Shown piece after piece: positions 10,591 through 62,180 of a DNA stretch of 64,000 bases. Source of the stretch: Tomocerus qinae (Eukaryota; Arthropoda; Collembola; Entomobryomorpha; Tomoceridae); contig CM034546.1 of NCBI GenBank assembly GCA_020055645.1, positions 62,062,001-62,126,000 on the forward strand, in the 5' to 3' direction. Below the pieces are notes generated by a model. The model was given only the letters and a program-made list of their open reading frames with translations, made no database searches and was not told where the DNA came from. Made by a program: the position numbers and the translations under genes. The number at the start of each line of letters is the position of its first letter. Within the stretch, counting starts at the first letter, position 1.

Positions 10591-11508
10591 CTATTAATAA
10601 GAACTACGCAGGGACATAAATACTAATAAATAGAAGTTAAGAGGAGATCGGTCAGCAATAATTCAACCACTTAAAACCTACTTGGTAAATATGACAAATA
10701 GTAATGAATAAAGTGAATACATAAACATGAGTCCGATATATACTAAATAATCGTATATTACTTATATAATTGAACTTTGTTGTCTTGTGGCATAATAATT
10801 TATACCTAGGTAATCATTTCGTCTAAGTCCCTAAAGGAAAAATTAAATAACCCTGAAGTAGTATTAAGTAAATTGTACTCGGCTCGGGTATTAAGTAAAT
10901 ACTCGAATACTATGCAATAATAGTAATTCAAGTTATATGATAAACTTTATCCACACAGGTACAATAATAACTGTCGAACGAACAGATAAATTATATAATA
11001 AATAAACTCCTGTAATTTCTGAATTTAAAATAATCATAATAATATGTCGGTACTGAAACTTATTTAATGTTTTCTTTCTCTCAGAAAATAATACTTTAAT
11101 ACTTAAAATTTAAGTTTTGTTGGCTAAGAAAGACATAATTACGATAATCGTACCTATACTGATATATAGAACAAATTCCATGCAGTTCAAAGACAAAAAT
11201 GAAATCTATGTATTTGGATGCCTTTAAATGCTTATTGCAATATTATGTTGAGTTTATTTACTAAGAAACTATTATTATGTTCAGCATAGTTCTTAATTTT
11301 CTATAAATTCAGTACACTATGAATTACATAACCCTTCATTAATGCTTTTACTGAAAATACTGCGGAAACTAGGTTCCTTTCCAATTTTCCTTAAGACATT
11401 TCATTTGTCAGTATACTATCAAGGCAAGTTTCGGAAAGTTATAGAATTTTAATTCCCCTTAAAAAGTTTGTTATAGCTATATGATAATTTAGTTTATGAT
11501 ATTAACAT

Positions 11509-31768: not shown

Positions 31769-31916
31769 TATGTGACATGGCATTGATGATTATAGTATGC
31801 CTGGAATTTAAACTTTTAGGCAGATCTTAATAGATAAAGTTTTACGACGAACCTGACCATAAATCATGCGTGGATACGCCCTGTTAGCACCTACTATGTA
31901 ATGCGATGTTAGTAAA

Positions 31917-32483
31917 TGTGGAAATCTCCAGCATAAAAGTATGACATGTAGAATTATGCATCTATATTTTAGAAAGGATGTAAATTAAGACTTGAACTTT
32001 TGTGCTGTTTTTCCTAAAGATTGTACGAATCGTATGATCATTCTTACCTACATTTAAATTAAGGAGTGAACTCTTGTACTATTTTTTCTTGAATGTATGA
32101 CCTAAGGCCCACTTCCAGACACCACAATTGAATAATTGGTCTCTGGAAGCGGACCAGTATTTACAATGTATGAATCTAAGATTATCTCTAATCTGAATGT
32201 GTGTCAGGTAAATGTGTCAACTCACTATTATAAATATGTGTGACTTACCTGTATCTAGAACTCACTCGACTCTGGTCTTTACTTATATACACACCTCTCT
32301 TAACTTTTTTGTAAAATAAAACTTTACAGATCTATACGTTCCTGCTTTACCAGTCTCAATTCCCCCACATTTACTCTAGGCTCATCTTAACTTGAAATTT
32401 TGCCATCATTTAGCTAGAACTTTTTAATTTTATACTTAACTAGTCTACGAACAAATAGTGTTGAGAACACTTAGCTTTTCTCA
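31917..32483 (+). repeat. 5' LTR of the BEL/Pao element
   Basis: 567 bp, TG...CA, preceded by target duplication GTAAA (31912-31916). Apart from an extra 11 bp it reads the same as the 3' LTR. Confidence 0.95.
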
Positions 32484-35500: not shown

Positions 35501-38162
35501 CAGTCTTAGGACTTTCCTGGAGCTTGAGACGAGATACTTTGGCCTGCCTCCTGACCGAAAATGAAATAAAGCTTGGCGAACCTGTCACCAAGCGAGGGAT
35601 ACTGTCTGCAGCCCACAAAGTCTTTGATCCCATCGGATTTACGTGCCCTGTTACGCTCCTGCCCAAGTTGCTGCTGCAGAAAATCTGGGAGTCGAAAGTT
35701 GGATGGGACGAGGAGGTGCCGGAAGATATCTCCAAAGAATTCAAGAAATGGGCTGACTGTCTTACCCTCCTATCTACAGCAGAAATCCCACGATAGTTAT
35801 TTGGGATGGACTGTCCTCGCCAATCCTGGCAACTACACGTTTTTTTCGACGCAAGTAAAGCCGCCTACAGTACGTGCGTGTTCCTGAGAGGGGAGGCGGC
35901 GGCGGGTGCAACGGCGCAACTAATCTCCGCAAAGACAAGAGTTGCCCCCGTGAAGAAAATTTCCATTCCAAGATTGGAGCTGATGGCCTGTTGCATCGGT
36001 GCCCGTCTAGCAGACTCAATGAAAAGAGCCATCAACTACCCAGACATAAGGATGACATTTTGGTCCGATTCTGCAAACGCCCTTTCCTGGATCCGCAAGA
36101 GCGAACAGTGGGCGATCTTCGTTGCAAATCGGGTAAAGGAGATCAGAGAGCTAAGCGATTTTGAAGACTGGAGACATATCCCCGGCCATCTCAATCCCGC
36201 TGACCTACCTTCAAGAGGCTGCACCACCGTTCAATTACTGGAGTCCAAATGGTAGGAGGGTCCAGAATAGCTGAGACAACCCGAAAAATTCTGGCCCAAC
36301 TCTACATGTACTCCTGACGAAGAAATCGTCAATGCAGAACGGAGAAAGACAGTAGCAGCCCACACTGCAGCTGCAGATGCAGAAAATTTCTCCGAAAATC
36401 TCTCGGTCTACATGTCGGAATTCCCCAGCATCCTCCGTGTAGTAGCATATATCCGACGTTTTGGAGCCAGGAGAAACACTTCAGATGACCGACCTGCGGG
36501 AATCCTAACCGTCAAAGAGCTAGAAGATGCGGAGATGTCCCTAATCTGGTTGGTACAGAAAGAAGCCTTGGCAGAAAATAAAGCCATCTTCAACTTTGTC
36601 CGGCTTTCAAAAGATGACAGAGGAGTCTTGCGGGTGAAAACAAAGCTGTTAAGAAGACAGGACAACTTCGACTTTAAGAGGCCTGCTGTTCTGCCACCCC
36701 GACATCCTATGGTGAGAGCACTCATCAGGGCGAAGCACTTGGAGATGAGCCATGCCGGAGTTCAATTCGTACAATCTGCACTCAGGGAGAAATTCTGGAT
36801 CCTCCGCTCCCGAAAGACTATAAAGGAGGTGATTTTCTCCTGCGTGCGTTGTCGGCGTTTCTCTGCCAAACCACTCGTGTCAGAGCCTACATCTCTTCCT
36901 CCTGATCGGGTCCGCGATGCCTCTACCTTCGAAGTGACCGGAGTTGACCTGACTGGCCCACTCTACCTGAAAGGAGGGAAAAAGGTTTGGATCGTCCTAT
37001 ATACCTGCGCCGTTTACCGGGCTGTCCACTTGGAGCTGGCGGGTTCTCTCTCCACAGAAGCTTTTTTGCAGACCTTCCGCCGCTTCATCGCTAGACGAGG
37101 ACGTCCCGTCACTGTTTACAGTGACAATGGCACCAATTTCGTCGAAGCCGACAATCTTTTTAGAAGTCTTAACTGGGAGGTGGTTGCGGCGACGGCGGTG
37201 ACGCAGAAAATCCAGTGGCGCTTTATTCCAGCTACTGGGGCGTGGCACGGAGGTTGGTGGGAGCGGCTAATTCAGATAGTCAAGAGGGTCCTAAGGCGAG
37301 TTTTGGGGAAGGTGACCCTACACTACGAAGAACTCTATACGATGCTGTGCGACGTGGAGAGTATCATCAACGGGAGACCTCTCACTTACGTCTCGGAAGA
37401 CCCGGAGGATTTAGTCCCGCTTACTCCTGCCATGTTCCTGCAAGACGTTCGGGAAACTGGAGTTGCAGATTTGGATTTGCTGGATGGACATGGACTTAAC
37501 AAGCGCCTCAACTACTGCCAGAAGCTTAGAGATGATCTAAGGAGCAGATTTCGACGGGAATACCTTGGAATGCTGATTCAATCTCCATCAAGCAAGAGAA
37601 AAGTCGACCCAATTGTTCCCGGAAGTATTGTCCTCATCGGCGATGACATACATAAGAGGATTGATTGGATCATGGGGAAGGTCGTTGAAATCTACCCAGG
37701 AGCCGACGGAAACGTAAGAGTTGTGAGACTGAAGGCAGCAAAAGGAGAACTTGTGCGACCCATTCAAAGACTATATCCACTGGAAGTCTCGACAGAGGAG
37801 CGACAAAGTTTGCAGCAGTCTCACCCTACAACTACACCTACAGCTCTACCAAGATCCGACGACCACAATCCTCCAAAGAAGCCTGAGCTGCAGATCGTCA
37901 CCAAAAGTGGACGTCGTTGCAAAATCCCCGATCGTCTCAACTATCAACATAAAAAGTGAAGTTGTCTGCGACGATCAGTGTAAAGTGTGATCAGTTATAT
38001 AGGCATTTTGTATGTAACTTTTTGCTAAAATATTGCTGACACTTTTATATTATTATGATTTTGGTATTATGTTTCATTTATGTTATGAATATTATTATTT
38101 TCAATTATTATGCTGTATCTTTATGGAATTAAGCTATTGTTTAACTTAATTCAGTGGGAGAA

Positions 38163-38718
38163 TGTGGAAATCTCCAGCATAAAAGTATGACATGTAGAAT
38201 TATGCATCTATATTTTAGAAAGGATGTAAATTAAGACTTGAACTTTTGTGCTGTTTTTCCTAAAGATTGTACGAATCGTATGATCATTCTTACCTACATT
38301 TAAATTAAGGAGTGAACTCTTGTACTATTTTTTCTTGAATGTATGACCTAAGGCCCACTTCCAGACACCACAATTGAATAATTGGTCTCTGGAAGCGGAC
38401 CAGTATTTACAATGTATGAATCTAAGATTATCTCTAATCTGAATGTGTGTCAGGTAAATGTGTCAACTCACTATTATAAATATGTGTGACTTACCTGTAT
38501 CTAGAACTCACTCGACTCTGGTCTTTACTTATATACAACTTTTTTGTAAAATAAAACTTTACAGATCTATACGTTCCTGCTTTACCAGTCTCAATTCCCC
38601 CACATTTACTCTAGGCTCATCTTAACTTGAAATTTTGCCATCATTTAGCTAGAACTTTTTAATTTTATACTTAACTAGTCTACGAACAAATAGTGTTGAG
38701 AACACTTAGCTTTTCTCA
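38163..38718 (+). repeat. 3' LTR of the BEL/Pao element
   Basis: 556 bp, TG...CA, followed by target duplication GTAAA (38719-38723). The purine-rich GTGGGAGAA immediately before it is the likely polypurine tract. Confidence 0.95.
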
Positions 38719-38723
38719 GTAAA

Positions 38724-40393
38724 GGTCATCAAATAAAATAACAATAAATAATTTAACTTTGTCTGCTTACTAGGGTATATTTTTATATCTTGATATTTAT
38801 GTTAATTGTGATGCAAAACAAAGAATGTTGCGTTTATTCAAAATATATTGATAGTTGCTGCGTTCATTGCCGAATGTCAATGGACCAATGGGGTTAGGTA
38901 TTTCAGAGCTGTGGTTGATTGATGTCTTTAAAATTTGATTCCAAATCGGTTGCTACGTTTGATGCCAAGTTAAGACGCGATAAGTAGAAACTACCGTTTT
39001 CAGGGTACAAAAATTTTAATGACGACTTGGTATTCAATCCCGACTCGTTTTTTCAATTCCGGAACCCCGGTATTTCCCGGGAAAAACATCCATAAATATT
39101 CATTTTCATTAATTATTTATGTTTATCCAATTCATATATTGAAAAAACATTTCTTGAAGTTACCTATTTGGTATAATATAAAATCATTTTACTACTTATC
39201 CCTTCATAATAAAAATGTTGTAAACTAAATATCTTTAACGATTTAAAGATGAAAATGGGGAAAGAAGTGATTGCAATATCGTCTTTTAAAAGTTTCAATT
39301 GGCTGAAAATCACCAATCACCCTAACCTTTTACGATGAGCATAATCTTCAAGTGTTTATCTTTATGTAGTAAAGATAATTTTATAAAATATACTTTTTAG
39401 TTCACACCAAATTTTTGTTGCTTATTTTGTTAGGATGGAATCTTGGCTTTTTCGTCACTACTTATTAATGAAACGTAGACATTAAAAGCATAATTTAAAT
39501 ATAAAGTAAATATCGTAGGAGCTATATTTCCAACACATTCCAAAAGTAGTTACAGAAGTCCGTAGATTATACTATTAAACCAAATAACCAAACCTACAAA
39601 GGTACATAAGGTACGAATTATATACAAGTTGATTCTTATTCCTTCGTTTCAGAATTAATTTTTCTTCTGATATTCTGGTACGGAGCCAAGGATTCTATAC
39701 AATTTACCACAAACAGTAAATTGCATAAAATTATTATGGGAAAATATTTCAGACATTGTAAAATTGTAATGACTGTAATTGAAATAATAAAACCTAAATA
39801 TATTATAGTACATGATACCATGGCCTGTGACTACAATCCCCTACACTTATGACACAATTACATCGTCTATAATGTATGTGGAATTGGATACAAAACAAGT
39901 TAAAGGCAAGACAGCTAGTAACTAACTGAAATTGCTATGGTGAATCACGAGGTGTTTTACCTATCTGTAGTGAAAAGTTGGTGACACAAAATGGAACGGT
40001 AAATTTTAGGTTCTAGAAATAATCGATACATGATAGAGTTTCTGATATTCCCATTTCCCACTCCATGCCACTTTGGTGGACGTCCAGGAAATGCTTGAAA
40101 ATTGATGGAATTGGGAAATATGGGAAATGAAACCCAAAATTTTGGAATTTTTGCTCTAATTTCAACTATTTCTCATACTTCCCATTTCCCACGTTATTTT
40201 AGTACCCACATTATATTTCCCATTGAGAATTGGAAAACTTAGTGGTAATTTCCAGTCGAAACCTTGATTAACGATTATAGCTACCAGTGAAAGTAGACAT
40301 AAGGATAATGCTGTCCTAATTTATTCGTCATTCGTGAAAGAGCGGCCAAAGCATCTCATAGTAGCTTCAAAATCAAAACGACTGGGAACAAAA
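38724..40393. other. Intergenic; duplicated chemoreceptor upstream block
   Basis: From about 39,355 to 40,440 the sequence is a diverged copy of 57,372-58,908, and part of it matches 61,830-62,115 in reverse. The latter lies directly upstream of the intact chemoreceptor at 59523-61729, so the block is the old 5' flank of that gene type. Shared words include TGGTGAATCACGA, GTTTTACCTATCTGTA and GTCATTCGTGAAA. No separate gene is seen. Confidence 0.6.
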
Positions 40394-41314
40394 ATGAAAA
40401 ATATGTACGAGTCAATTACAATGAAGAACTTGGACTCTAAATTGAAAAGGTGTAAATGCCCATACCAAATCGAGCAATGTATTTAAAGATTATGGCTTTC
40501 AATATTAAAGTCTGCAACATACTTGGGGCTTGTCCAGCAGTTTTGTATTTTTGGCCAACTTCACTCTACCTAATTCTATGCCGAAATGCACCTAGAACTA
40601 CGTTTACTAAGTGGACTTACTAAAATATTATTCAACTGAACACTAATCGTTGATCTCACTGATCATGAGCCACTGACACTAACCTATGCCCTGCTCAATA
40701 ATGTGTAGTTTCACTAACTACAAAAATCAGTTATTTCTAACTATTTGTTAACACACAAAGTTAAAATCAAATTACAAATATTCACACAAAATAAATTGCA
40801 AAATAGAAATGAACTATATTCCACTATTTTCTACGAGCCTCGTGATTACGCTCAACACGCTTCTGCTATCGTTCTCGTACGACCTAATGGGACGGCTTCT
40901 TGTTTGCCACTGTTTTTTCTTTCTTCTCGTCAACCGCCGTTGGCTTCTCTCGCGTTCCCGGCTTGAGATTTAAATTATTTCCCAGGCTAGTCTCAGTCTT
41001 CGATTCCCCCGGACACAAGTTTTTAACAGTGATTTATTTTGTATATCCAAATCTAAGTCAAAATGCGATCAATGGAGGAACTATCTCACAATTGGTACTT
41101 ATACAACGTTAACAGGAATTTTCATTGTTCAGTTTATCCGTATGACGGTATTACATGAAAACAGCTACCAATATGGACTTTGTTTTGGCATTTCGATATG
41201 CATGACTTTGGGAAGTGGGTTATTCTATATACGTAATTTTAATGATCTTTGACGAGATTGGTAACATTCATCAATATCATCAAGAAGCAATGAAAACCTT
41301 GCTTAAATTCGAAG
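40394..41314 (+). pseudogene. Chemoreceptor exon-1 fossil split by a solo LTR
   Basis: Starts ATGAAAAATATGTACGAGTC and ends AAATTCGAAG before a GT donor, matching exon 1 of the gene at 59523-61729 (N-terminal region, WDQWRNYL-like segment, first two membrane spans, KTLLKFEG end). Small length changes break the frame (for example around CCCATACCAAATCGAG), and a 474-bp LTR sits inside. No exon 2 or 3 follows, so this is an isolated exon remnant with its upstream flank. Confidence 0.8.
40544..41017. mobile_element. Solo LTR (474 bp) in the chemoreceptor fossil
   Basis: Starts TGTATTTTTGGCC, ends CCCCCGGACACA, flanked by the exact 5-bp duplication AGTTT (40539-40543 and 41018-41022). The flanking exon matches the intact paralogue right up to both edges, which fixes the borders. 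No internal region remains, so it is an LTR left after recombination. The LTR family is not identified and it is unlike the BEL/Pao LTR in this window. Confidence 0.8.
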
Positions 41315-41965: not shown

Positions 41966-44900
41966 TTATTTATCAGGAATTATTCCAAAATTCTCATATA
42001 AGCCTGATTGAATGGCATACGCAATGTGATTATGAAAAATCTGATGAGGGTGAGGAATTCTGTCGCATATATCAGGAATGAGTTCCTTAACTTTGTCGCT
42101 TATGCGGTTTGTATTTGCTCCACTTTCAACAAAATCACGCACCTTGGGATGATTTTTAGTAATCTCAGAATATACTAATTTACCACCCTGACTATCCTTG
42201 AAAATTTCCAAAAAGTTATTGTTCTCAGCTTCCTTATTTAACCTATCTTCGAATTCATCTTTGCTGACTATTTGTAAATTAAAACCCAATTCTTTGACCA
42301 CCGCGATGTAATCACTGACATAGAATGGAACAGGCTGAACCAAATTATAGACTCCATATATCAATTTATTGTTACAGATAAATTCCACCATTAATTTACT
42401 TGCGATGTCAACTGGAAAAGCAAACCAACATCCTTCGATGTTAGCAATCACACCAAAGCGAAGGGACAGAAGTAAACCATTTGTGGTGGAGTTTGTGTCC
42501 AAAATGAAATGGCCGGTTTCACTGTGTCCCATTAGATTTGAATATCTAATCACAGTGCAAGGAATTCCTCTTTCATTAGCTTGTCTTAATAACTTTTCAC
42601 AAACAAATTTGGAGACCGTATAACCCAATGTCAAACCATCGGCATTGTTATCATCATCTGGGAATTCTTCATATATAAATCCGTCTTCGGTGAATCTATT
42701 TATGGTTGAAAATGACGAAGAGTATAAAAACCGCTTTGTTTTTATATTGGCTGCAAATTTCAAAACATTAATTGTTCCTAGAACATTGACTGAACGAATA
42801 TCGAATTTGTTTCCAATGTTGATTTTATAGCTTTCAATGTGATTTACTTTAGCTGCAAGATGGACCACCATATCGATTTCCGTCGAATATTTGTTATAAT
42901 CTTCTACCGCTATACCCAAATTTTCTTCTGTTACATCACCCAAAAGAATCTCAATGTTGTCCAAAATAAAACTTTCAAACAAATCATATTTTTTCATATT
43001 ATTACTTATTTTCCTACGGGCTTGCTTTACAGACTTTCCTCTAATTAAGCAATATATTTTGAACTGCTTATTCTGTGACAATTCTTTCAACAGGTAAGCC
43101 CCTAGGTGACCTGTGGACCCTGTTAGTAAAATTTTTGTCATATTATCTATTGGCACAGAATATTCTTTTTGCGCACAGATGTCCTGAGGAAGTTTAGAAT
43201 CATTTTTGGCTAATTCAAGCATACATTCAATGTCCAGTACTGTTTCAATAGTTTCACTATATTGGCTTAAATTATCGTTACCGTCTTCTGTCTCTATTGA
43301 TTGCTCGGTTAAGAACTTACTAAGAGAACTAATAGTAGGATGGTCTAACATTGCGGCAACGTTTAAAGTTACTTTTTTCCCTAACATATTTTGTAATTTA
43401 TTTTTCATTTCCACAGCCATTAAAGAATCTAACCCCATTTCCTGGAAACTTTGGAATTCATCAATAGTTTCCGATTCTGGAAGTTTCAACGTCTTTTTAA
43501 TCATTGACGTAAGTTTATTCTTAATGTAATTATTTCTATCTTCTTTAGATAGTAATCTTATTTCATTCCAGAATGTTTCTGACTGAATAGAAGATGATAT
43601 TTCGAAAACTTCCTGTTCATTGTCCAACTCTGATAATAGATTTCCCTTACTAAAGTATTCCCTAAATACATTTAATGCAATTTGGATTACACCAACCTGA
43701 AGCAAATCCGGTCTACTCATTATAAATTTGAGTGAGGCTAAACCTTGGCCTACTGTAAATGGCATAATACCAAACATTCCCTCCTTGCCATAAGCAGTAT
43801 TGGAGGCAGCCCCAACTTCTGCCCATCCGCCCCAATTAATTGTTTGAGCGGGAAGACCAATGGAATGGCGATAGCGGGCAAATGAATCTAAAAACGCATT
43901 GGCTGCAGCATGATTACTTTGTCCCATTGGGCCAAAAACACCTGCCATTGACGAAAATAGGATGAAATGTTCTAGATTTAAATCTTTTGTTAAGTTGTGC
44001 AAATTTAGACAACCTGCTATTTTCGCATTAAAAACAAGTTGGTATTTTTCCCATGTTTGATTCATAAAGATTGCGTCAGATATTACTCCAGCAGCGTGAA
44101 TCACCCCTTTTAATGGAGGAAACTGATTTTCTGAAGAACTTAGAATACTAAATAGGGATTGACATTCTTCAAATTTTCCAACGTCAATTTGATGGGTAAA
44201 AATTTTGCATCCTTTTACTCTCAAGCTATTTAGCACTTGAGATATAATATTATTCGGAAGACTTCGAGCTACTAAAACTAAATATTTACATCCAGAATCT
44301 ACCATCCATTTTGCCACCTCAAGTCCTATGCCCCCTAAACCTCCCGTTATTAGATATGTCGCGTAGTTATTAAACACCACATTTTTTTTAATAATATTAT
44401 TACCAACCTCAATGAAATCTGGCATTGTCACAACTACTTTTCCAATATGCTGTGCTTTCAGGAAATAGTTAAAAGCATCTCGGATATTTACAACGTCAAA
44501 CCTTGTGTGTAGTAATGGCATTTTGTATACTTCATTGTCTTGAAAATAGTTAGTAATTTCCTTTATCAAATACCCAATTGACGTTTCGGATTGCTTTTCC
44601 ATGTCAACAATTGTATACTGCACATCAGGGCGCAATTGAGTAACTTCTTCTGACTTCCAAATATTTACTTTTCCCATTTCTACAAAACGTGCATTTTGGG
44701 CACAATATTGCAAAGTCATTTCCTTAAAACCATGACCTGTTAATGAATTCAGAACTATGTCTACTCCCCTTCCTTGTGTTACTTTTTCTATTTCATCCCC
44801 GAATGTTAAATCTCTGGAATGAAAAACATGTTCAATGCCAAGTGATCGTAAGTAGTTTCTTTTCCGATGAGAACCGGCAGTAACAATAATTTTGGCCCCA

Positions 44901-46846
44901 ATAAATTGGGCAATTTTAATTGCAACTAAACCTACTCCGCCTGACGCTACGTGAATCAAAATAGTTTCCCCTTTTTTTAAATCTGCAACGAGAACCAAAC
45001 AATAGTATGCCGTAAGGAGGACGGAAGGGATTGTTGAAGCTTCGCTAAATGTAATCTCTTTAGGTTTCCGCATGCATAAGTCTTCATGTGTATTTACATG
45101 ACTACCAACAGCACTGCAAACTGCAACGCCGTAAACTTCGTCCCCAATATTATACGTAGTAACTTCAGAGCCAATATTAGAAACTACTCCAGCAAAATCT
45201 GACCCAACCGTCTCTTTTATTGTTAAGTACTGCTCCGGCTTAAGAATATTGAAAATATCCCGAAAATTAAGTGCGACAGCCTTAACAAGGATTTCGATAT
45301 CCTTGGTGCCTAATGGTTCTTTTTGCAATGCGGAAAACCTGATGTCGTTAATGTTTTTTGATTTAGGTATTGCAATTCTATATCGTCCGTGTGGAAAAGT
45401 TAGTGGAGCTAGTGGCTTGGGTAGTACTATAATTCTGGCAATAAACCGTTTCTTACTTCTATAGCAAACTAAATGCTCTTCGTTTTCAAAAATCTCAAAA
45501 AATATTTGTTGGCTTTCAATTTCTGAGTTGAATTCATCCGGATCCAAATCGATTATTTTCCCCTGAAGTTTAGCTACTTCGTTTGCAAAACTTTTGGCCA
45601 TACCCCAGACCACAGCATTGAATGGCAATACTAACTTTTGATTTTGAAAGTAATATACACCTTTGGTGACTAAAACTAATTGTAGATTGTTATGTTCTTC
45701 TTCGGAGAGAAATTTGCAAAGCGTTAAAAAATTTTCATACTTTATGTCCTGATTTTCGTTATTTATTGTTGTAGCCATATAAATGATCCCTTTGATACTG
45801 TATTTTTGTAGAATGGTGAATTTAAAACTTCTCATCGTATGAAAATCATTGACTTTCCAAAAAAATATGTTTAATGTCGCATCTTCCATTTGGTTATTTT
45901 CTCTCTGAACGAAAATAACTTCATCGCAAATATGATTAAACTTTTTCCTGATTTGTACAAAATAATCTCCAATTGCATCAAAAACTATCCAGGCTGATGG
46001 TTTTTCTTTTGAATCATTTATATTTCGTACCAAATTCTGCGCCTTAACAATGCCGTGACTATATTTTATGTCCACAGCTTTGGATACTAAAACTTCAGTG
46101 ATCTCCTCTGTAAGAGATATATTGACTGCAGCATCGAATCCTGTCTCCTGATTTATTTTGCACCACACTTGCGATGACACTAGTGGATGACGAAATCTAA
46201 TGTCATAATCATTGAACTTCCAATATCCATCTAAAGTTCCAAATATGACATCGAGAGCCCTGCACGGCTTCATCATTTCCCCTAATACAAATATTCCTCC
46301 AGTGCATATTAACTTACGAATATTGGCCAAAGATTTTTTTGAATTTTCAGTTGAGTGAATTACGTTCACGGCAACGACCACGTCATAATTTTGAGAACAA
46401 AATCCTTGCGAGGAAGGATCCTTTTCAATATCTAACACTTTGTATTCGATTCCCCCTATTGCTGAAAATTGTTGTTTGGCACTCTCAATGAAATGAGGAG
46501 AAATATCAGTGAAAGTGTATCGATAAGGAATGTTTTCATTTTGCAAGACATTTAATATTTCTTTTGCTGTGGCCCCACTACCTGATCCAATTTCTATAAT
46601 TCTAACAATTGAATCTTCTTTCTTTCCATCTAATTTAAAATGCTGAAGTGCAAGCCCTAGATATCTGCCTACTCGTCGGCTAGTCAGAATATGATCCTCA
46701 CTTTTTGTGTAAATATCTAATGGGTTAAATTCCTCATTACCAAATAGAGCAGATATTGCAGTCATTTTTCCTGTTAAAACATCCCATAGCAATTTGAATG
46801 TGAATTTTTTGAAAATCTCAATGGCAATGGTTTGTCCCAATGGCAA
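41966..46846 (-). pseudogene. PKS segment 3: methyltransferase, ER, KR, ACP, terminal reductase
   Basis: A 1,626-residue open frame. C-methyltransferase about 1-260 (SAM loop IIEIGSGSGA near 85). Structural KR half about 260-460. Enoylreductase about 485-810 (NADPH loop HVASGGVGLVAIKIAQ near 632). Ketoreductase about 830-1060 (TGGLGGIG near 834; HAAGV; FSSMAGVFG). In the ketoreductase the catalytic tyrosine of the usual GQxNYxAAN is histidine (GQSNHAAAN near 978). ACP with GLDSLMAVEM near 1140 carries the phosphopantetheine serine. The C-terminal thioester reductase, about 1235-1620, has TGSTGHLGAYLL and a YxxxK in GYTVSKF, so release as an aldehyde or alcohol would be expected. The frame is intact throughout this segment. 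Confidence 0.93.
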
Positions 46847-46886
46847 CTTATCTAAAAGAGATTTTTGAATGTGTTTGTCTTCACTT

Positions 46887-49373
46887 TCAATTTCCTATGG
46901 TCGGGAAAGTCTTAAGACATTTCCACCCGTCCATAAAACCTGATGCGTTATCAATTTCGATCCCAAAGCCTTCTTCACAAAATATTTCGAAAATTCGCTT
47001 CATAAACATTAAATAGGTGTTTGAAATTAAATGGTATTGTAAAAATTCGTCGATCCAATAAGTGTTGCCGAGTTTAGGAGAAAACCCATTGATCATCATT
47101 ATTTTCATTAAAGCATAGCTAACCTGTTTGTGGAGTACACTGTGGATTTCAAAGTTAATTAATTTGAAATCCTGCTCCATTGATCGAAATAATGGAGGCA
47201 TAATATTTTCCGTCTCTTCTATCTTCCCAATATCTATTCTTGATTGTGAGCATCCTAATCGTTGCCTCCAAATCTCTTGATACATACCTGGTAACATATA
47301 TTTTTGTGCACTGATTACATTAAGAAATGAACTGACCGATGTCCTAATCAAATGAATACCAACCATAACAACCATCAAAACATTTTGGTCACTGTAAAGT
47401 GCAACAGAGCCCGAAGACTTTACCTCAGTCCATTTAGCATGAGCAAAGAAATTATCACAAACTACATGACTAACCATAAACACATGATCTATACTAACTG
47501 GCAAATGTAATTCAACACTGTCATCTCCGATACTTAACCCAAACAGTTGTATCATACTGTCTAAAACAATTGGATGACACATGTAGTCAACCAGATTTCC
47601 TGCCTTTTTAGGGTTAGGAATTAAGGCAATAGCTTCATTGTCCCCCACCCAAACGGTTTGTATACTTTGAAACGCCTCTCCAAAATGTAATCCTATCTGT
47701 GGGGCAAACATGTAAAATTCACTAGATTCTCGTTTTATTGAGCAGCGATTTTTAATATCTGCAATATTTTCTGAAGAATGTTGTGCGTTGGAAAAACATT
47801 TTTCCGAAAAAGTATCCGTAACATCCACTTTCAAGGACGTATTTAGGGGGGGTGCTAGGGTGCTTAAGCACCCCCTAAATATTTTGAAAACACACTAGAT
47901 ATTATCGCGTTTTCACCACTTATGTAATATTCAAGTATTTAATTCCAAATTGGAGGAAACATATTTTCTTTTTCATATGACACAATAACATATATTTTAT
48001 TTTCGAGCCTTTTCGAATATGTTTGAACATTTTCGAATCCTTTTTTCCCTGTATTGAACCTTAGAATCTGAGATTTCTGTATATTATATTGTTACAAAAT
48101 ACAAAATGGAAATGTGCTTAGCAATTGACCACTTCTGAAAAGAGGTTTTTTGTTTAAAACATCTAAAACTAAATCGGCCGAACTGGGTGGGTGATGACAG
48201 ATAAATCACATATTTAGAAGGCTCCCAGCCCCTTAATCTAGATATAAAGTGGATTTTTTTGACAAAGATTAAAAATCATAAATTTTTTCGCGCTTCGCGC
48301 GTATATTTTTCTTTTTTACTAATATAATGATGCAAGGACGTATTGAGGGATGGGCATTACCAAAATCAATAAAAAGAGCCATTTTTTCTCACAATCACAC
48401 AAAAATTTCGCGCTCCGCGCGATTATTTCCTTTTTCAGGCCTATTTTGTCTCCTTTCCGCCAAAAAAAAATCTAAAAATTTTCGCGCTAAACGCATGTAA
48501 ATATCACTAAAATATCTATTGGAATTAGCCCCTTCCGAAACTCAGTTCTGTATACGTGCTTGTAATGACGGTTCTAATTGCTTGATTTATGTAATACTCA
48601 TTTTTAGAAATTAGCACCCCCTAGATCCAATTTCTAGATACGCCCTTGTCCACTTTCTTATGTAAAGTAACAAAAGCACTTGAATGTCGTTTCCAATCCT
48701 TTTCATCATTGTAACCATTCACATTTTGGAAAAGATAAATCTTGATATTGTACATATTGGTCTCATTTTTTACAGGAGAAGCCACTACTTGAATTATGTA
48801 TTTTTTCTCCATTTCTAATTCTAAAGGAGATTCTACGACGAAATCTTTGACTTCTAGCACATCGAGCTTAACATTTTCAAATTTTAACAAGACGTCTTGT
48901 CCAGCAGCCAAAATGATTTCTAAAAATCCTGCAGCTGGCAACACAGTAACATGTGCAACTTGATGGTCTTTTAAATATGGAAGATCACCCAAATCCCACG
49001 TATGTTGATACACGATATCAGCCAGATCTGCCAAAATTATTTTTCGACCAAGAAGAGGATGAATGGTCTTTTTGAAATTATCTCCAGAAATATCGGTCCA
49101 ATACTTTTCTCGCTGAAATGGATATGTTGGCAGAGGCAGTTTTTTCCGATGCCAACATTTATCTAAAGGTGCCCAATTTACATCTACTCCATTTGTATAT
49201 AAAATTCCTAAACTGTTTAGAAATTTTTCCCAGTCGTCCTTATTTCTGCGTAGTGAAGGCAGCCACAAATGACTTCCCGAACAATTTATGTTAGTCATTC
49301 CTAGCGCCAGCAAAATGGGATGTGCCCCAATTTCTACCAAAATATTGTATTTCAGATCTCCAATTGTACACAT
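46887..49373 (-). pseudogene. PKS segment 2: end of AT, dehydratase, split by a transposon
   Basis: The part before the insertion (49373 to about 48649) holds the post-AT linker (LPTYPFQREKYW) and the DH N-terminal hotdog half, with HPLLGR and DHQVAHVTVLPAAGFLE, where a His sits in place of the Gly of the usual HxxxGxxxxP motif. The part after it (about 47831 to 46887) holds the second half with HPIVLDSMIQL, the usual position of the catalytic Asp. The hAT-like element 47832-48648 separates the two halves. DH activity is uncertain even without the insertion. Confidence 0.85.
47832..48648. mobile_element. hAT-like non-autonomous element (817 bp) inside the PKS
   Basis: Ends CAAGGACGTATTTAG and CTAGATACGCCCTTG, flanked by exact 8-bp duplications TCCACTTT (47824-47831 and 48649-48656) made from PKS coding sequence. 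The interior has three TTCGCGC-type palindromes near 48,290, 48,405 and 48,480 and no transposase. Termini resemble those at 55360-55535 and 62621-62775, and a truncated relative lies at about 60810-61191. Confidence 0.92.
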
Positions 49374-49397
49374 TCCTTTTTGGAAATTTACTATTTC

Positions 49398-51785
49398 TCA
49401 TGCATGTCTTACCCAATAATCCCCTTCTAACATTTCATCATCAGAGATAATCAAACCTGTCGTACCGGATATATATCGACATCTTGGGGGTTTGTATACA
49501 ATTTTCTTAGCAAAGTCTCCAAAAGGTTTTTTTATTTTGTCCATTTCTCGAGAATGGAATGCATGCGAAGCTGCCAAAATCTGACATTTTGTATCATTGT
49601 TTTGGCAAAACGTTTCAAAACTTTTGATCGAGTCTTTGTTCCCTGCTACAACCACCTCCTCGTTGGAATTAATAACTGCAATATCCAGCCACTTGTTCGA
49701 ATTGCCATCCAAAAATTCTGATATAAATTGGGAAACTTTTTCTATTGATAAACTAACAGCCATCATTCCACCTGAAGGAAGAGTCTGGATAAGTCTACTT
49801 CTTTCAACTAGTAAATTTAAAGCGTCTTCCATATTCATTATTCCAGCTGCAACGGCAGCCACGTATTCCCCTACACTGTGTCCAAGTACTACATCTGGTA
49901 CAACCCCAACACTTTCCCACAGTTTTAAAAGACTATATTCCACAGCAAATATAGAAAGCTGACTATTAATTGTTTGTTCCAACAAATCAACATCCGATTC
50001 TTCCCATATTGAATTTTGTAAGGATATTCCAATAGTTATCTGAACAATGTCTTCACATTTTCTAAAAGCTCGGCGGAATTCGAAATTTGAACGAATTAAA
50101 GATTTTGCCATTCCAAAATATTGCGATCCTTGACCAGTAAATAAAAATGCAATTTTTGGTTTTGCTATAAGAACTGGGGGGATATACGCATCCCTCTCAA
50201 TTGCTTTCTGAAAGTCATGGACGCTTTTCATTGTGATTGCCAAACGATATTTTAAATGGGCCCTGCCGTTATTACAGGTGTGAGTTAAGTCAGCAATATT
50301 TATTTTTGGATTTTTTTCGAGATATTTAGCGTAAATATTTGCCAAATCTTTGAGAGCATTTTCTGACTTTGCAGATAGAGCAAGAATATGAAAAGATTTT
50401 TCAGATTCGAACAAATCTATATTTATAGGCTTTATCAACTCATTACTAGGAGGCTCTTCTAATATAACATGAACGTTAGTCCCACTGATCCCAAAAGAAC
50501 TTATTCCCGCTATTCGAATTCGATCTGAATTTCTGGACCACTGTTGAGGAACAAGAGGAATAACAGCAGGCACAACATTCAAATCAATGTTAGGGTTAAG
50601 CTTTGTGAAGTTCTTATGAGGAGGAATCATCTCGTGCTCAAGAGCCATAATAACTTTTATCAAACCGGCCAATCCAGCTGCTGATTCAGTATGACCAATG
50701 TTTGTTTTTACCGAACCAATGAACAGCGGTTTATTGCGCTCTCCAGTGTACCCAGCCGAAATGGCTGCAAACTCAATAGGATCTCCAATAGGAGTGCCTG
50801 TCCCATGTGACTCTACATAGTCAACGTCCCCTGGATGGATCCTCGAATTTACCAAAGCATTTTTAATTGCTATTTCTTGACACATTTTACTGGGTGTTCC
50901 AAAACTGGAAGAAGTTCCTTCATTACTCACAGCTGATCCTCTAACGATTCCTAGAATTCTATCACCGTTTTTTAAAGCATCTGGCAGCCTTTTCAAAACA
51001 ATTACCGCCACTCCTTCAGCTCGACCAAAACCATCCGCTGATTCATCAAACGTTTTACAACGACCATCTTTAGCCAGAATTGGAATTTCCTCAAGTGGCA
51101 ATTGTAGTATAATAACGTTGGCCCCCAAAACCATTCCCAAATCTGATTCTCCTTTCCTCAAACTGTCACAAGCCAAATGCAGAGCCACCATTGAAGATGA
51201 ACAGCCGCTTTCTGTAGCCACATTTGGGCCGTTGAGACCCAAAAAGTGGGAAACTCTTGCCGATGTCGCAGAAAAAGCATTTCCAAGGATCACGTGATGG
51301 AAATCTTGGGCAGTTGAAGTTTCCGTTACAAGTCTTTCGTAGTCATGTGTCCAAACTCCAGTAAATACACCCGTATTGCTGCCCTTCAGAGATTGTGGGT
51401 TGATGGCTGCATGTTCAAGAGCTTCCCAAGCAACTTCCATTAAAAGCCTTTGTTGGGGATCCATAAATGCTGCTTCTCTTGGGCTAATACCAAAAAATTT
51501 GGCATCAAATTCATCAATGGCGCATTTCAGAAACCCGGCTTTTGATTCTGTAAATCTTGAATCGTTCAGTTGAAAATCAAAAAGTCGTTCCAATGGAACC
51601 GATCGGATTTCATCTCTTCCATTTTGTATCAACTCCCAAAATTCTGAATTACTGTTTGCTCCGGGAAAACGGCAACTGTATCCAACAACCGCAATTGCAT
51701 TTTTATAATGTTTGTAGTTTTTCTTTGTAACAAAGGATATTTCATTGGTTCCAAATTCTTCAGTCCCAGCTACTTCAGTTTTCAA
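49398..51785 (-). pseudogene. PKS segment 1: ketosynthase and acyltransferase
   Basis: About 795 residues. KS begins at IAVVGYSCRFPG (about residue 31). The active-site cysteine is Cys195 in TESGCSSSMVALHLA (the usual motif is DTACSSS), with His327 in ESHGTGTPIGDP and His365 in KTNIGHTESAAG, so the Cys-His-His triad is complete. After the KS-AT linker, AT has FTGQGSQ (about 549-555), Ser637 in GHSVGEY and HAFH at 741-744. In established PKS practice HAFH suggests malonyl-CoA rather than methylmalonyl-CoA loading. The segment ends in YWVRHA followed by TGA; the same frame continues past it into segment 2. Confidence 0.92.
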
Positions 51786-53531
51786 AAAATTTACTTCACT
51801 AAGTGTTTCGTTTCTCCAAGTTTTCCACGAGAGGTAAGCTTTCTGTATTTGATTATTGCAAATATTATTGGTATTTCACCCGTATAATAAAAGGTATTAA
51901 TCAACTTTTGAATAGAGGTAAACTACCAAGTTATAATATAGATATCTATACTTAGCTTTTAAGGTAATTGGTGTATCTCTAGTACCTAGTAGGTCTACAT
52001 ACTTACTTGAAATATATCAAATGTGCTATCTTCTTGATTTGGTGTAATGGTTTCAAAATCAGACAATATTTTGACGTGCAACAAACCGCTGTAAAACGAA
52101 AACAATGCACCAGAAAATTGGTCGAATTTGATACATTTTGGTTATTTTCTTTACTTTGGTATTTGGCTGTTTTTGATGAATATTTGATCGTTTGTGCATT
52201 ATTGCATCAATGTTATGAACTAACTGTTTTAACCAATTTACTAATAATAAAAATTCAAGTTAGTATTTGGTGGATTATTGGATTTAATAAAATAATAAAG
52301 GTAGCCACTTACGATTTTGTTGCCCCTATGTTCGTGATATTAAAATTGTATTTTTCTTGCAATTCTCCATTTTTAGCGAGCCAAAAGTGGTCGTATAAGA
52401 TATCCGGCACTGAGATTTTAAAAATGTCATGCATATAAATATCATTATCTTGAACAAAGTAAAACCAAAACTCAACAGCAAGATGAAGTTCAATCTCAAT
52501 TCAAACTCTACATCACAAGCATTATGGACGCGCGAATTCAATTCAAGCTAGCTCATCACAGCGTGTGACTCTGGTACAGGGAGCTCGCTCATTTTTGACA
52601 CCACCCTCAAACTTTTCAAACGCCTCAGGGCATATACTATAAACTATCAGTCATATAATTTTCGAATTTTATGTATGCCGGAAGCATGTTGTGCTCAGTG
52701 TACAAAATACCATTTACTACTTACCAGTGGTAAGTGGTTTTTAATGGTATTTAACGTTAAATACCACTACGTAATAAGTAGTGGTAAGTGGTATAAATGG
52801 TAAAAATGGTAAAAAATAGTTTCTTTTAAATTTCGTGTTTGAATTTTGAATAAAATTCGGTGCCAAAGTATGAAATAGCTTAGCAGATGATCATTGTTGT
52901 CACAAATTGATAAGTGTTCGTCAATTAGAGTAGGATTCAACCAATGGGGGCGCTAACAACCCTTGCCGATTGAGAAATTAATTGCAATTAAATTAGCATC
53001 AATTTTAAATGGGCGATACCAAATACAATATTTTTTCTTCATTTGTTTTATAATTTTTGGTGTACAATCAAATAAATATGATTAAATTAATTGCTTAAGG
53101 GGCTAATTGGAAATATTTCATAGAAAATAAAGTTTTAAAACTTATATTTTAGGAAGTCTAGTGTATCTGTACTCAGCTGTCTAATCAATCGCTAAAATTT
53201 ACCATTTTTACCATTAAATGCATTTTTACCATTAAGTGCATTTTTACCACTGTGATGGTAAAAAAGGCTAAAAAGTGGTAAATTTTGTACACTGGTTGTG
53301 CTTTCAATTCAAATGATGCATTGATGCGGTTAATGTTCCGATCTAATGATTGAAATAAATAGCAAAAAAATATGTAATGTAACTATGTTTCAAAAATTAA
53401 TTGAAAAAATTAGGTAAATACTAATAAGTAGAAATTATAAATTACTAATAGCAGTATGCTCTGTGATGTAACAAATATTTTAACGCTATTTTTTATCAGA
53501 GAAGTCGTCCAATAAAATATTCATATTATAT
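51786..53531. other. Intergenic upstream of the PKS
   Basis: A hAT-like element occupies 52696-53294. A 143-codon open frame at 52007-52438 (+) has no recognisable domain and is not called. Any missing first PKS exon would lie in about 51,840-52,690; none could be identified by eye. Confidence 0.5.
52696..53294. mobile_element. hAT-like non-autonomous element (599 bp)
   Basis: Ends CAGTGTACAAAATACCA and GGTAAATTTTGTACACTG, flanked by exact 8-bp duplications GTTGTGCT (52688-52695 and 53295-53302). Subterminal regions are arrays of TGGTAAAAATGG/TTTACCATT words. No coding capacity. Confidence 0.92.
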
Positions 53532-57034: not shown

Positions 57035-57247
57035 AACTCCATGTATACGTATATAGCGATTAAGCTATTCCATACACAAAACCAAAAAATGCCACAAGCC
57101 AGTCAAGCCACTGAGATAGATTTTCATTTGGGAGACGTCTATCAAAACTAAATATTTATAAACAGTATCAACCACCCACCCATAACACTCCCTCAAGATG
57201 TATGCCCCATAAACCTCTAGTTATTAGATAATATGTGGCATGTGGCA

Positions 57248-57371: not shown

Positions 57372-58908
57372 CAGGTGTTTATCTATATGTAAAGATAGTT
57401 TTGAAATTTGTTGGGATGAAATCTTTCGTTACTGATTAATGAAACGTAGATGACAGGAAGCAAATACTAAAAACATAATTTAAATAATAAAGTAAATATC
57501 GTAGCTACAACTCAATCGCATTTTTAAAGTAGTTAAAGAAGATAATAAGACCATATATATTGTATTATTAAACCGAATAACCAAACTTACATAAATAGAT
57601 AAGCTAAGAGTTATAACCAAATTGATTTTCATTCCTTTGTTTAAGAGTTAATTATTGTCTTGATATTAAGGTAAGTATGATTCTATACAATTTACTACAA
57701 AAAATAAATTGCATAAAATTATTATGGGAAAATAACAAAGGATTTGTAATGACTGCTATTGAGATAATCACCTAAACATTATGTATGATACCATATCCTG
57801 TGACAACAGTCCATTAAATTTATGCCCCAATAGCGCCGGCTTGTTGTCTATTTGTGCAATTGGATAAGAAAACATGTAAAATGCTAGGCACCTAGTAACT
57901 AACGGAAATTGCAGTGGTGAATCACGAAATGTTTTACATATCCGTACTGAAACGTTGGTGACAGAAAATGGAACAGTAAATTTTTGGTTCCAGAAATAAT
58001 TGATTGCGGACAGAGTTTCAAAAATTCTTATTTCTCACGAAACTTTGTTGGACGTCCAGGAAATACGGGAAATTGTGGGAATTGGAAAATATGGGAAATG
58101 AAGCGGAAAATTGGCTCTAATTCCCACTACTTCCCACACTGGTTCCACACTTACAGTGGGAAACTTTCCGTTAGTGGTATTTCCCAGTCGAAACCTTGAT
58201 TAAGAATTATCTACCTTGGAAGGTTGGAAGTAGAAATAAGGTTGGTGATGTCCTAATTTTATGCGTCATTCGTGAAAAAGCTGCCAACACTACCTTAAGT
58301 TTCAGTTGAATATATTTTTTGCATATGTATATACTATTGTAACTAAACATCAAATGCAAAATGATGGTCAAGAGCTCGAAACTTGGTACCATGTATTTTG
58401 TAATTGTAATATTTATTAAGCCCTGAGGGAACAGTACTTAAGTAAACACATTGACAACATAACTAATGATGACTTCTATACTCTTTTAGAGTTTGATGAG
58501 TATAATGCTAACAAACTAAATAATATTTACTATTTTGTCGCAGTTGCACTTCGGTTGAGGGCGATAAATGAGGTGATAAATGAGTGATTAAAATTGCCAA
58601 ACAACTTATAATTATAATCACTAATAATTACAAGAAACCTGATAAATAATATTTTGTTAACTAAGGGAAATTACTATTTAAATTCAATTAAGTAAGTAGA
58701 TAGTTAGTGAGCATAAAAATACTAATACAATGTCTAAAATTACTTTGTGTAATAGGTCTATGATCTCAGAAACACAATAAAGTCCATACAATTATACAAA
58801 AACAATACAATACTATTATAACTAATCTCATCGATCGATGGGGTACAAAAATGAAATATCTGTAGGAATCAATTACAATCAAAACTTAGGACTCTAAATT
58901 GAAAAGTT
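57372..58908 (+). pseudogene. Duplicated chemoreceptor 5' flank ending in an exon-1 scrap
   Basis: Parallel to 39,355-40,440 over about 1 kb (for example TATAAAGTAAATATCGTAG versus TAATAAAGTAAATATCGTAG, and GTGGTGAATCACGAAATG). The end, 58850-58908, matches the first about 55 bp of chemoreceptor exon 1 (CAATTACAAT...GGACTCTAAATTGAAAAG) and then stops. Decayed and non-functional. Confidence 0.65.
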
Positions 58909-59522: not shown

Positions 59523-61729
59523 TTACGAACTGATAAGAAGTTTTCCAATGCCTCTAATAAGGCTTATTATAAAATTGGGAACACTCCTCTTGCTGATTTT
59601 TAAATTGTCCCCGATTTGAATTTGTGCGTATTTGCACGATACTTGGTATTTCTTCATGTAAATGTTGTCTATGTTATTATCGGATTGGAACATAGATATA
59701 CTTTTTGTTATTCCATTTACAGTATTAGCAAAATTTTGATATATAGTTAAAAACAAAATCCAAAACCCTGCGGTCGCTATAGCACATATTGTCATTAAAG
59801 ATATTACAATAGGTGACATGTCCCTGTAGTTATCTATCAAAGTGTAAAATATGATTAAAACAGATCGATTAATCACGAAATACGCCAACTGGAGAACATA
59901 TCGACAGATATTGTTGAAATCTTTTAACAGGACTTGACATGTGATGTGAAGCTTCACAAATATTTGTGGGGATCTGGCAGAGTCATTGCTCACGTAGTCC
60001 TTCCTTCCAAATCTATGAAATGACAACCTCATGTTTAAAATATACTAAATAAATTGATACACAGTATACTTTGACTACAGCTATAAAAAGTACTATTTTC
60101 CTTACTTTAATTCATTTGCCACAAATACAGTATTACGGTGGGAAAAGAGACCAACCAATGCAAGACCACATGCCAAACATAATTCCGCGGCAAATATCCA
60201 CCAAACAACGAATCCGTAGAGAACTACAAAAATCCAACTTTTGTACTGTGTCGGTAGTAATGCGTAGGGGAACATTGGGAGATCGTACATAACTAAGAAG
60301 AACAAAGCAATCCAAAAAGAGTAAATGGTTGCCAAAACTGTCAGTACTTGGATTACATTGATGTCCAGCATTTTCATTTCGAAACTATTTTCCATGTGTT
60401 CATCTATGGAAATTAAAAAAACAGATAGTTACAGTAATAATGCAATGTGAAATAAACAATTGAATTAGCACAATATGTATTGTATTGTATAAATAAGAAC
60501 AATATCTAATCAAATATTGTGAATGTCATGAGGTAAGCTATTGGAATTGGAACATTGTATTAAGTCATACAACGATAACAAAAATGTACCAATATTTCTT
60601 GGAAAACCTGAGCTTAGGTAGATTTACCTTAAATGTCATAATACTGATAATTAATAATATTCAGGATAAATATCGAATTTCTTTAACATTTGGAAAATTT
60701 AAAATATTGTATCTATCGTTAGGTTTGGTTTGCCCAGCACTGCTCAATTATGTGGGCATTTACACCTTTGCTTCAATTCAGAGCCCTCTTTGTAATTGAT
60801 TTTGAAGGCTGACAAAAAATCCCCTTTACTTAATTTAAGGGGGTCACCTTTTCTAAATACGGGATTTACATGTCATAACCCACTCAGTTCGGCAGATTTT
60901 AGTTTTAGGCGTTTTAAACAGAAAAAGCTCAGATTCAAAAATGCTGAAGCTGAAAAGGGTTAGAATATACTCGAAAATAAGATACGCAATGTAATAATAA
61001 TATGTCAAATTGATGTTACCATGAAAATGAAATTATGTTTCTCCCAATTTGGAATTAAATATAGGTGTGTTTGGTAAAAACATGATAATGAAAATATAAA
61101 TATTTGTAAATAATGTAAATAATAATGTTTATATAGTGTAAATATTTTGAAAAAATATTTAGAGGGTGCCTACTAAATACGTCCGTCCTTGTACGTGCTC
61201 TACTCTAGTGTTAAAGATTTGTAGAACAATGGTAAAATAGTAACAATATAATGCCTGTACAAATATATAAAACACATTCCAAATTTTTACCTTCGAATTT
61301 CAGCAGAGTTTTCATTGATTCTTGATGAATGTTGACCATATCATCAAAGACCATTAAAACCAAATAGAATAACCCACTTCCCATAATCATGCATATCAAA
61401 ATGCCAAGACAAAGTCCATATTGGTAGCTGGTTTCATGTGATAGTGTCATACGGATAAACTGAACTATGAAAAATCCAGTAAACATGGTATAAATACCAA
61501 CTGTCAGATAGTTCCTCCATTGATCCCATTTTGACTTAGATTTGGATATACAAAATAAATCACTGTTAAAGACTGCTGGACAAGCTCCAAGTATGTTGCA
61601 CATTTTAAAATTGAAAGCCATAATCTTTAAACACACTGCTCGATTGGGTGGGCATTTACACCTTTTCAATTTAGAGTCCAAAGTTTTCATTGTAATTGAT
61701 TCGTACAGATTTTTCATTTTTGTTTCCAT
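59523..61729 (-). CDS. Gustatory-receptor-like 7-TM chemoreceptor (three exons, intact)
   Basis: Exons 61729-61291, 60403-60106 and 60012-59523, phases 1 and 2, 1,227 nt, 408 residues, TAA end. The complete reference copy of the subfamily also seen at 1-1779 and 4213-5662; exon 2 (298 nt) and exon 3 (490 nt) have identical lengths in all three. Exon 1 encodes CPPNRAVCLKIMAFNFKMCN, WDQWRNYL and two membrane spans; exon 2 two spans around VVWWIFAAELCLACG; exon 3 two spans and the SLIRGIGKLLISS tail. The ATG at 61717 (MKNLYES) aligns better with paralogues than 61729, so the start is uncertain by four codons. Intron 1 (60404-61290) contains an exon-1 scrap and a truncated hAT-like element. Confidence 0.78.
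60739..60805 (-). pseudogene. Exon-1 scrap inside intron 1 of the same chemoreceptor
   Basis: ACTGCTCAATTATGTGGGCATTT and the following bases match 61637-61700 (the 5' part of exon 1) in the same orientation. A partial local duplication. Confidence 0.6.
60810..61191 (-). mobile_element. Truncated hAT-like element related to the PKS insert
   Basis: In reverse complement it begins CAAGGACGGACGTATTTAG and runs parallel to the PKS insert: AATTCCAAATTGG, then CTAAAATCTGCCGAACTGAGTGGGTTATGACAT against CTAAATCGGCCGAACTGGGTGGGTGATGACAG (given in parts as compared words). The other end is missing. Confidence 0.65.
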
Positions 61730-62180
61730 TCCGTTTTCAATTTTTAAGCTACAATGAGATATCAGTTATAATAGTACATACACACAAAAAAATAATTTGT
61801 TTAGCTCAAATTTATGGAGCTTTTAAAGCTAACTGTAATGTTGGCAGCTTTGTTACGAATGCGAATAAAATTAGAACATGACAAATGTTGTGTCTATGTA
61901 GACGTAAATGCTGCCTAAGTTGTTGCTCCATAAGCTATGTTTTAGCAAAATTATAGAACCTAAAATCTACGGTGTCATCAACTTTACAATACAGATAGGT
62001 AAAACATTTCATGATTCACCGTAGCAATTTCCGATAGTTACTACTTACTGCATGACTTGCCTTTTACTAATTTTGTATCCTATCACACAAATAAAGTGGC
62101 AGTAAATAGGGCATAAAGGTATTATATATTGGGTTGTTTTCACAAGCTGTCGTGTCATACACAATATATTTAGGTATAGG
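61730..62180. other. Upstream flank of the minus-strand chemoreceptor
   Basis: 61,830-62,115 matches, in reverse, the flank copies at 39.9-40.35 kb and 57.85-58.3 kb (GTTTTACCTATCTGTATTG, ATTGCTACGGTGAATCATG, CGTAACAAAGCTGCCAAC). Because it lies just upstream of an intact gene it is the likely promoter region; no specific site is recognised. Confidence 0.5.

Follow-up and report, generated by a model that had tools for sequence, protein, structure and literature searches.

Springtail genomes are already known to carry biosynthetic genes that look foreign. In Folsomia candida, 36 biosynthetic clusters have been reported, 30 of them type I polyketide synthase (PKS) clusters, and the genes of these clusters were for the most part scored as foreign too (PMC5490193); the F. 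candida protein OXA62418.1 is named among foreign type I PKSs in PMC10764717. The same paper mentions arthropod sequences of animal fatty acid synthase (FAS)-like PKSs (AFPKs) that bear reductase (R) domains. Nonribosomal peptide synthetase (NRPS) or NRPS-PKS genes also occur in bdelloid rotifers, nematodes and springtails, according to PMC11258130 and PMC10531068. Here we describe a type I PKS locus of the springtail Tomocerus qinae, which lies on the minus strand within positions 62,062,001 to 62,126,000 of contig CM034546.1 (GCA_020055645.1). This stretch of 64,000 nucleotides, numbered from its first letter, is referred to as the window. We consider the locus to be, with good probability, an old, host-adapted, horizontally acquired PKS of bacterial (cis-AT) type, iterative in use and reductive in release, whose inactivation in the sequenced haplotype is recent. 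The F. candida PKSs are likewise type I, and published accounts describe them as acquired and in linkage with native genes of the animal (PMC5490193 and PMC10764717). The R-ended AFPKs of arthropods (PMC10764717) share with it reductive release in an arthropod megasynthase. AFPKs have a FAS-like ketosynthase (KS), whereas the window KS is by score not FAS-like.

The same order of domains, up to the acyl carrier protein (ACP), is found in two cyanobacterial PKSs, WP_179070241.1 of Nostoc sp. C052 and WP_015191277.1 of Gloeocapsa sp. PCC 7428, whose KSs are 47-48% identical to that of the window. Unlike the window PKS, both are adjoined by further PKS genes, and the Nostoc protein has an AMP-binding domain and an ACP at its start. 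A terminal reductase is not among the best 25 Pfam matches of either protein (of 38 in Nostoc and 29 in Gloeocapsa). Fungal highly reducing (HR) PKSs such as LovB presumably share the order of the window PKS up to the ACP as well, although LovB is not known to have an R domain of the window type, and it scores far under CurL with the window KS and KS-AT. The R domain itself has its best Protein Data Bank (PDB) match in MxaA (4u7w, 144 bits), which we take to be the terminus of a myxobacterial assembly line. In the titles and abstracts that we surveyed, no description of this architecture as an animal pseudogene was found, from which we claim no absence.

Domains and lesions of the module

From 51.84 to 41.97 kb the minus strand reads KS-AT-DH-cMT-ER-KR-ACP-R, one type I module of KS, acyltransferase, dehydratase, C-methyltransferase, enoyl reductase, ketoreductase, ACP and R, with Pfam matches above cut-offs. 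An earlier note, made from the sequence alone, had proposed this string. Its order is confirmed, and what falls away is the single gene frame, since the module is encoded by four open reading frames (ORFs) between 51785 and 41966 and is broken by three lesions. All domain coordinates below refer to the minus strand, and the motifs named are, apart from two departures in the DH and KR, those usual in active domains. The KS (50454..51701; PF00109/PF02801, ketoacyl-synt N 256 bits and C 130 bits) has its Cys in GCSSSM (51206-51189) and its His in ESHGTGT and TNIGH. The N-terminal part of the AT (49407..50147; PF00698, Acyl_transf_1 150 bits) carries GHSVGE and HAFHS, the latter presumably indicating malonyl-CoA use. 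The DH is in two halves, the first at 48741..49061 (PF21089, PKS_DH_N 70 bits) with DHQVAHVTVLP and the second at 47337..47762 (PF14765, PS-DH 64 bits) with HPIVLDSMIQ; we take the common motif to be HxxxGxxxxP, from which this DH departs by a His at the Gly position. Next come the cMT core (46073..46606; PF08242, Methyltransf_12 61 bits), with IIEIGSGSG and a match to CurJ over residues 81-258, and the ER (44420..45379; PF08240/PF00107, ADH_N 33 and ADH_zinc_N 64 bits), with ASGGVG and a match to the CurK ER. They are followed by the KR (43817..44362; PF08659, 220 bits), with TGGLGGIG and NHAAAN, and by the ACP (43310..43516; PF00550, PP-binding 44 bits), with GLDSL. The terminal, thioester-reductase-like R domain (41966..43135; PF07993) extends to the stop codon and scores 172 bits with NAD_binding_4 against a cut-off of 20.1. 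It contains both TGxTGxxG and YxxxK (TGSTGHLG ... YTVSK), which we take to be motifs of thioester reductase domains; TIGR01746 gives it 206.0 bits, below the curated cut-off of 213.35. With NAD_binding_4 at the C-terminus, no thioesterase is seen among the Pfam matches of the four pieces.

Most catalytic motifs are thus kept across the module. The KR has a His in NHAAAN at what we understand to be the position of the usual Tyr. A pattern search of the loci retrieved gave six distinct KR motifs: Tyr stands in five of them, and the sixth, that of the Nostoc sp. C052 PKS WP_179070241.1, has His. Because this cyanobacterial PKS has the same residue, the His is a variant found in nature and need not be a sign of decay.

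The span is split into its four separate ORFs by an in-frame TGA, an insert in the DH and a change of frame. In six-frame reading, the TGA (49398..49400) closes the KS-AT frame inside the AT, within YWVRHA*EIVNF. The same frame continues beyond it, and the NCBIfam model NF045894 is matched over profile positions 2-776 before the stop and 791-880 after it. The frame change lies between the DH and the cMT core, at 46887..46897, where two frames meet, each closed by a stop. An intron placed here by eye (TCAG/GTTTTA ... CTTTTAG/AT) would leave the reading open, but it was rejected, as it removes a GW..L..P stretch that we believe to recur in other cMTs. The third lesion is an insert of 817 bp that splits the DH (47832..48648, strand unassigned). 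It has terminal repeats with CAAGGRCGTATYTAG ends, the matching ends being CAAGGACGTATTTAG and CAAGGGCGTATCTAG, and is bounded by exact copies of an 8-bp target-site duplication, TCCACTTT, on the left (47824..47831) and on the right (48649..48656). Terminal repeats together with a target-site duplication are the signature of a DNA transposon. The insert has the features of a hAT-type miniature inverted-repeat transposable element, namely an 8-bp duplication and short terminal inverted repeats; these presumably typify the hAT superfamily, and the label hAT-like rests on them. It is probably non-autonomous, as it contains no ORF of at least 150 aa in the ORF list, no family search having been made. 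Together with one target-site copy it measures 825 nt, a multiple of three, and the PKS frame that runs into it soon reaches a stop. Apart from these interruptions the remaining sequence, 3,014 codons in four pieces, is free of stops. With its three disruptions the copy is not expected to yield a product in the haplotype as sequenced, unless the lesions are erroneous or the other haplotype lacks them. The methylated aldehyde or alcohol foreseen in the earlier note would therefore not come from this copy.

No ATG is found upstream of the KS in its frame, in which the open stretch starts at 51875. An intron of 164 nt, GTAAGT...TACAG, may be read at 51843..52006 on the minus strand, its donor, GTAAGTAT, at 52006 being strong and, like the acceptor before 51842, in phase 0. 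As the same strand has 29 instances of GTAAGT over the 64 kb, an intron at the start of the PKS is only a suggestion. The first exon that it would imply upstream shows no start codon.

Affinities of the ketosynthase and other domains

In a phmmer search of the PDB, read over the best 60 of 150 matches (the 60th at 249 bits), the window KS scores 435 bits with CurL, 377 with DEBS, 310 with LovB and 300 with Dictyostelium Pks16, and neither FAS nor EcPKS1/2 is among these 60. The nominally higher 590 bits of 7zma are the sum of two KS domains (280 and 307). With KS and AT together as query, CurL reaches 614 bits, Pks16 377, LovB 368 and FAS 283, and EcPKS1/2 are again not among the 60 matches listed. 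The reciprocal query, the KS of human FAS, behaves in the opposite manner, with EcPKS1 at 442, EcPKS2 at 406 and CurL at 281 bits (7zma at 483 over two domains). In an alignment of 44 rows, the window KS is 48.9% identical to a Calothrix KS, and human FAS, at 33.3%, is the lowest of the 43 other rows; conversely, 38 rows are nearer to human FAS than the window KS is. By similarity, then, the window KS is nearer to bacterial cis-AT KSs than to FAS. The PKS has neither the KS similarity nor the C-terminal thioesterase of an animal FAS, and its KS is not closest to FAS and EcPKS as that of an EcPKS-like AFPK would be. The contention of the earlier note that it is neither of the two holds on these scores.

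The rest of the module agrees. The ER-KR-ACP piece has its best match in MAS (303 bits), ahead of FAS (203) and EcPKS1 (159), and the piece from cMT to R scores 140 bits with CurJ and 137 with LovB, the latter figure being the sum of two stretches, with the cMT the best. Over KS-AT, the 40 best-ranked of 1,293 plasmid records show identities of 38-42.5%, cyanobacteria foremost. A scan of genome contigs, whose automatic patterns were probably peculiar to the window, yielded no more than four AT matches, in Pelagibacteraceae, at 28-31%. In 398 genomes sampled from the phylum of one of these, the matches listed do not exceed 41% for KS-AT or 47% for the KS alone. NF045894 ('PKS_plus_SDR', 819 bits with KS-AT) was considered as a specific family and set aside as generic, because all seven bacterial KS-ATs tried score 992-1104; its cut-off is passed by none of 150 sampled genomes.

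Of the 32 KS columns that do not vary among 39 bacterial rows, the window keeps 29, the changes being L to M twice and N to S. From this retention and from the 3,014 open codons we infer that the gene was constrained until late and then recently lost.

A KS tree was built, omitting tblastn pieces of <380 query residues and locus L034, which duplicates a place in L006; LovB, Pks16, EcPKS and fungal rows have no part in it. The window sits on an end branch of 1.21, and the bootstrap had not settled. As far as sequence comparison goes, the similarity evidence for a bacterial type is clear and the tree evidence weak. One further row deserves mention for its own sake: a bacterial KS of Nonomuraea gerenzanensis (L007, 3738-4982) groups with human FAS in the KS tree (96/83). 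At 43% identity it is the row closest to human FAS, and it might be of interest for how animal FAS arose.

Several results weigh against a bacterial-type gene that was recently lost. The KS phylogeny asked for in the earlier note leaves the window in a bush of mostly bacterial cis-AT KSs, in which no starred set includes it. Constraining it to join human FAS costs 14.5 log units and is not rejected by the approximately unbiased (AU) test (p-AU 0.222); a constraint with CurL, at 7.2 log units, is not rejected either (p-AU 0.39). The share of invariant KS columns kept, 0.906, falls slightly short of the lowest bacterial leave-one-out value of 0.914, while in human FAS 31 of the 32 are retained, so that some decay or divergence of the window KS is possible. 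A close donor was found neither in the plasmid records (best 40 of 1,293) nor in the 398 sampled genomes (matches listed), and for this reason an older eukaryotic lineage is also conceivable. Plasmid R domains are only 23-32% identical to that of the window (tblastn, best 30 of 172), a range that is uninformative. Errors of sequencing might account for the TGA and for the frame change. The earlier note had taken release through a reductase to exclude an ordinary AFPK; taken alone it does not, since PMC10764717 mentions R domains in AFPK sequences of arthropods.

Residence in the animal chromosome

Two features anchor the PKS in this chromosome. In the flanking DNA, at 60796..61191 on the minus strand, lies a relative of the transposon-like insert (blastn, two pieces, E 6e-19 and 3e-10; alignment and end sequence), 9 kb past the 5' end of the PKS and 12 kb from the insert. 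The decayed relic of a second PKS copy, corresponding to the start of a KR, is found at 57096..57230 on the same strand, 5 kb past the 5' end; it matches at 72% over 123 nt in blastn (E 6e-10) and at 44% over 45 aa, two stops included, in tblastn (E 0.011). Codon usage agrees with that of neighbouring genes. Third-position GC is 0.29-0.33 in the PKS, 0.36 in FANCI and the receptor-like stretches described below, and 0.54 in the ORFs of a BEL/Pao element. With exon limits that are stop-to-stop guesses, the codon choice of the PKS correlates at 0.92 with FANCI, 0.93 with the receptor-like stretches and 0.46 with BEL/Pao, FANCI and the receptor-like stretches themselves correlating at 0.84.

The earlier note had set the PKS between intron-containing animal genes, which is correct in outline. 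FANCI solenoid or helical domains are found above Pfam cut-offs in three of the four plus-strand stretches tested, at 19.9-25.6 kb, and these split pieces end about 16 kb from the PKS. Between these pieces and the PKS lies the BEL/Pao element at 33.1-38.0 kb (33070-37959, plus strand), whose flanking repeats (31915-32483 and 38161-38718) are 98% alike; BEL/Pao elements are, to our knowledge, confined to animals. The other flanking genes only look multi-exon and have no family match. They are repeated, membrane-protein-like stretches on both sides of the PKS (133-5659, 8000-9288, 11506-13096, 29033-30575, 40268-41249 and 59526-61765), some of them 69-89% alike in DNA. Those submitted to Pfam matched no family at cut-off and a profile of six stretches matched no PDB chain, so that their designation as arthropod-type gustatory receptors is a guess.

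Some further features of the window may be recorded. The BEL/Pao element has a GC content of 0.45-0.50 against a background near 0.32 and looks young. A direct repeat of 0.9 kb, 72% alike, occurs at 39426-40349, near the 3' side of the PKS, and at 57407-58287, adjoining the KR relic. A T-rich tandem array of 38-bp and related units occupies 18531-19074, where several overlapping ORFs are probably spurious. Rfam returned nothing at gathering scores.

Alternatives and biological meaning

Could the gene still work? That would require the TGA and the frame change to be errors of assembly or sequencing and the insert to be spliced as an intron or heterozygous, which we regard as unlikely. The rest of the sequence is open over its 3,014 codons with most catalytic motifs in place, and the insert plus one target-site copy is divisible by three; against this stand three separate lesions, an insert that is transposon-like in its terminal repeats and target-site duplication and brings the entering frame soon to a stop, and a match to NF045894 that continues across the TGA. 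It is rather less likely still that the locus is a retrocopy, processed from an animal PKS with introns at another site of the genome. Although the main 9.9 kb has no recognised intron, the copy is disrupted and the nearby second relic points to more copies of this PKS family, no A run longer than six occurs in the 665 nt past the stop, a possible 5' intron is retained, and the copy spans the whole from KS to R.

As to source, acquisition of an HR-PKS from a fungus is improbable. The order up to the ACP is presumably fungal too, and on the cMT-to-R piece LovB (137 bits) nearly equals CurJ (140), but LovB trails CurL with the KS (310 against 435) and with KS-AT (368 against 614), the ER-KR-ACP piece matches bacterial chains best, and the same order exists in cyanobacteria. 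More improbable again is an AFPK derived from animal FAS that gained cMT and R domains. Such an origin is compatible with the unrejected FAS pairing in the AU test and with the mention of R-ended arthropod AFPKs in PMC10764717. It is difficult to square with human FAS being the least similar of 43 KS rows (33.3%), with the ranking of FAS and EcPKS1/2 outside the best 60 of 150 PDB matches, and with a human FAS query that puts EcPKS1 (442) and EcPKS2 (406) above CurL (281). Contamination by a bacterium or fungus, or a chimeric contig, might be suspected from the long intronless coding stretch and the bacterial-type similarity. It is unlikely, indeed the most implausible of these explanations, because the PKS contains a transposon whose family recurs 12 kb away in flanking DNA, a KR relic lies there too, codon usage resembles that of nearby genes, and the surroundings are animal-like, with a BEL/Pao element and a split FANCI gene within the window.

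We thus return to a host-adapted, horizontally acquired bacterial-type PKS, for which horizontal origin, iteration, product class and recency of loss are all inferred. Its stay in the animal genome would have been long enough for its codon usage to become that of the host and perhaps for a 5' intron to be gained. There is a single module and it has one ACP, which suggests that it worked iteratively, as fungal HR-PKSs and MAS-like enzymes do. In the intact enzyme, its own AT would load malonyl units and the chain would be extended iteratively on the one ACP. The cMT would add methyl groups from S-adenosylmethionine to alpha-carbons, while KR, DH and ER would reduce the beta-carbon to a varying degree. 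The R domain would then offload the thioester by NADPH-dependent reduction to an aldehyde or alcohol, so the predicted product is a methyl-branched aldehyde or alcohol. A role for it as pheromone or in cuticle or defence is speculation.

A wider scenario can be offered tentatively, and we hold it rather doubtful: the host lineage may possess a small family of methylating PKSs of bacterial type, each ending in a reductase, among chemoreceptor-like genes, with working copies elsewhere that make methyl-branched aldehydes or alcohols for communication or defence. This locus would then represent a loss by transposon insertion, perhaps as a polymorphism of intact and interrupted alleles. The general picture is unchanged, because foreign type I PKSs of a springtail and R-ended PKSs of arthropods have already been published. 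To the PKSs known from animal DNA the locus adds an architecture with both a cMT and a reductase, and it appears to record the birth and death of a biosynthetic gene that an animal acquired, a near-complete megasynthase of bacterial type that came to have host-like codons and was then disrupted.

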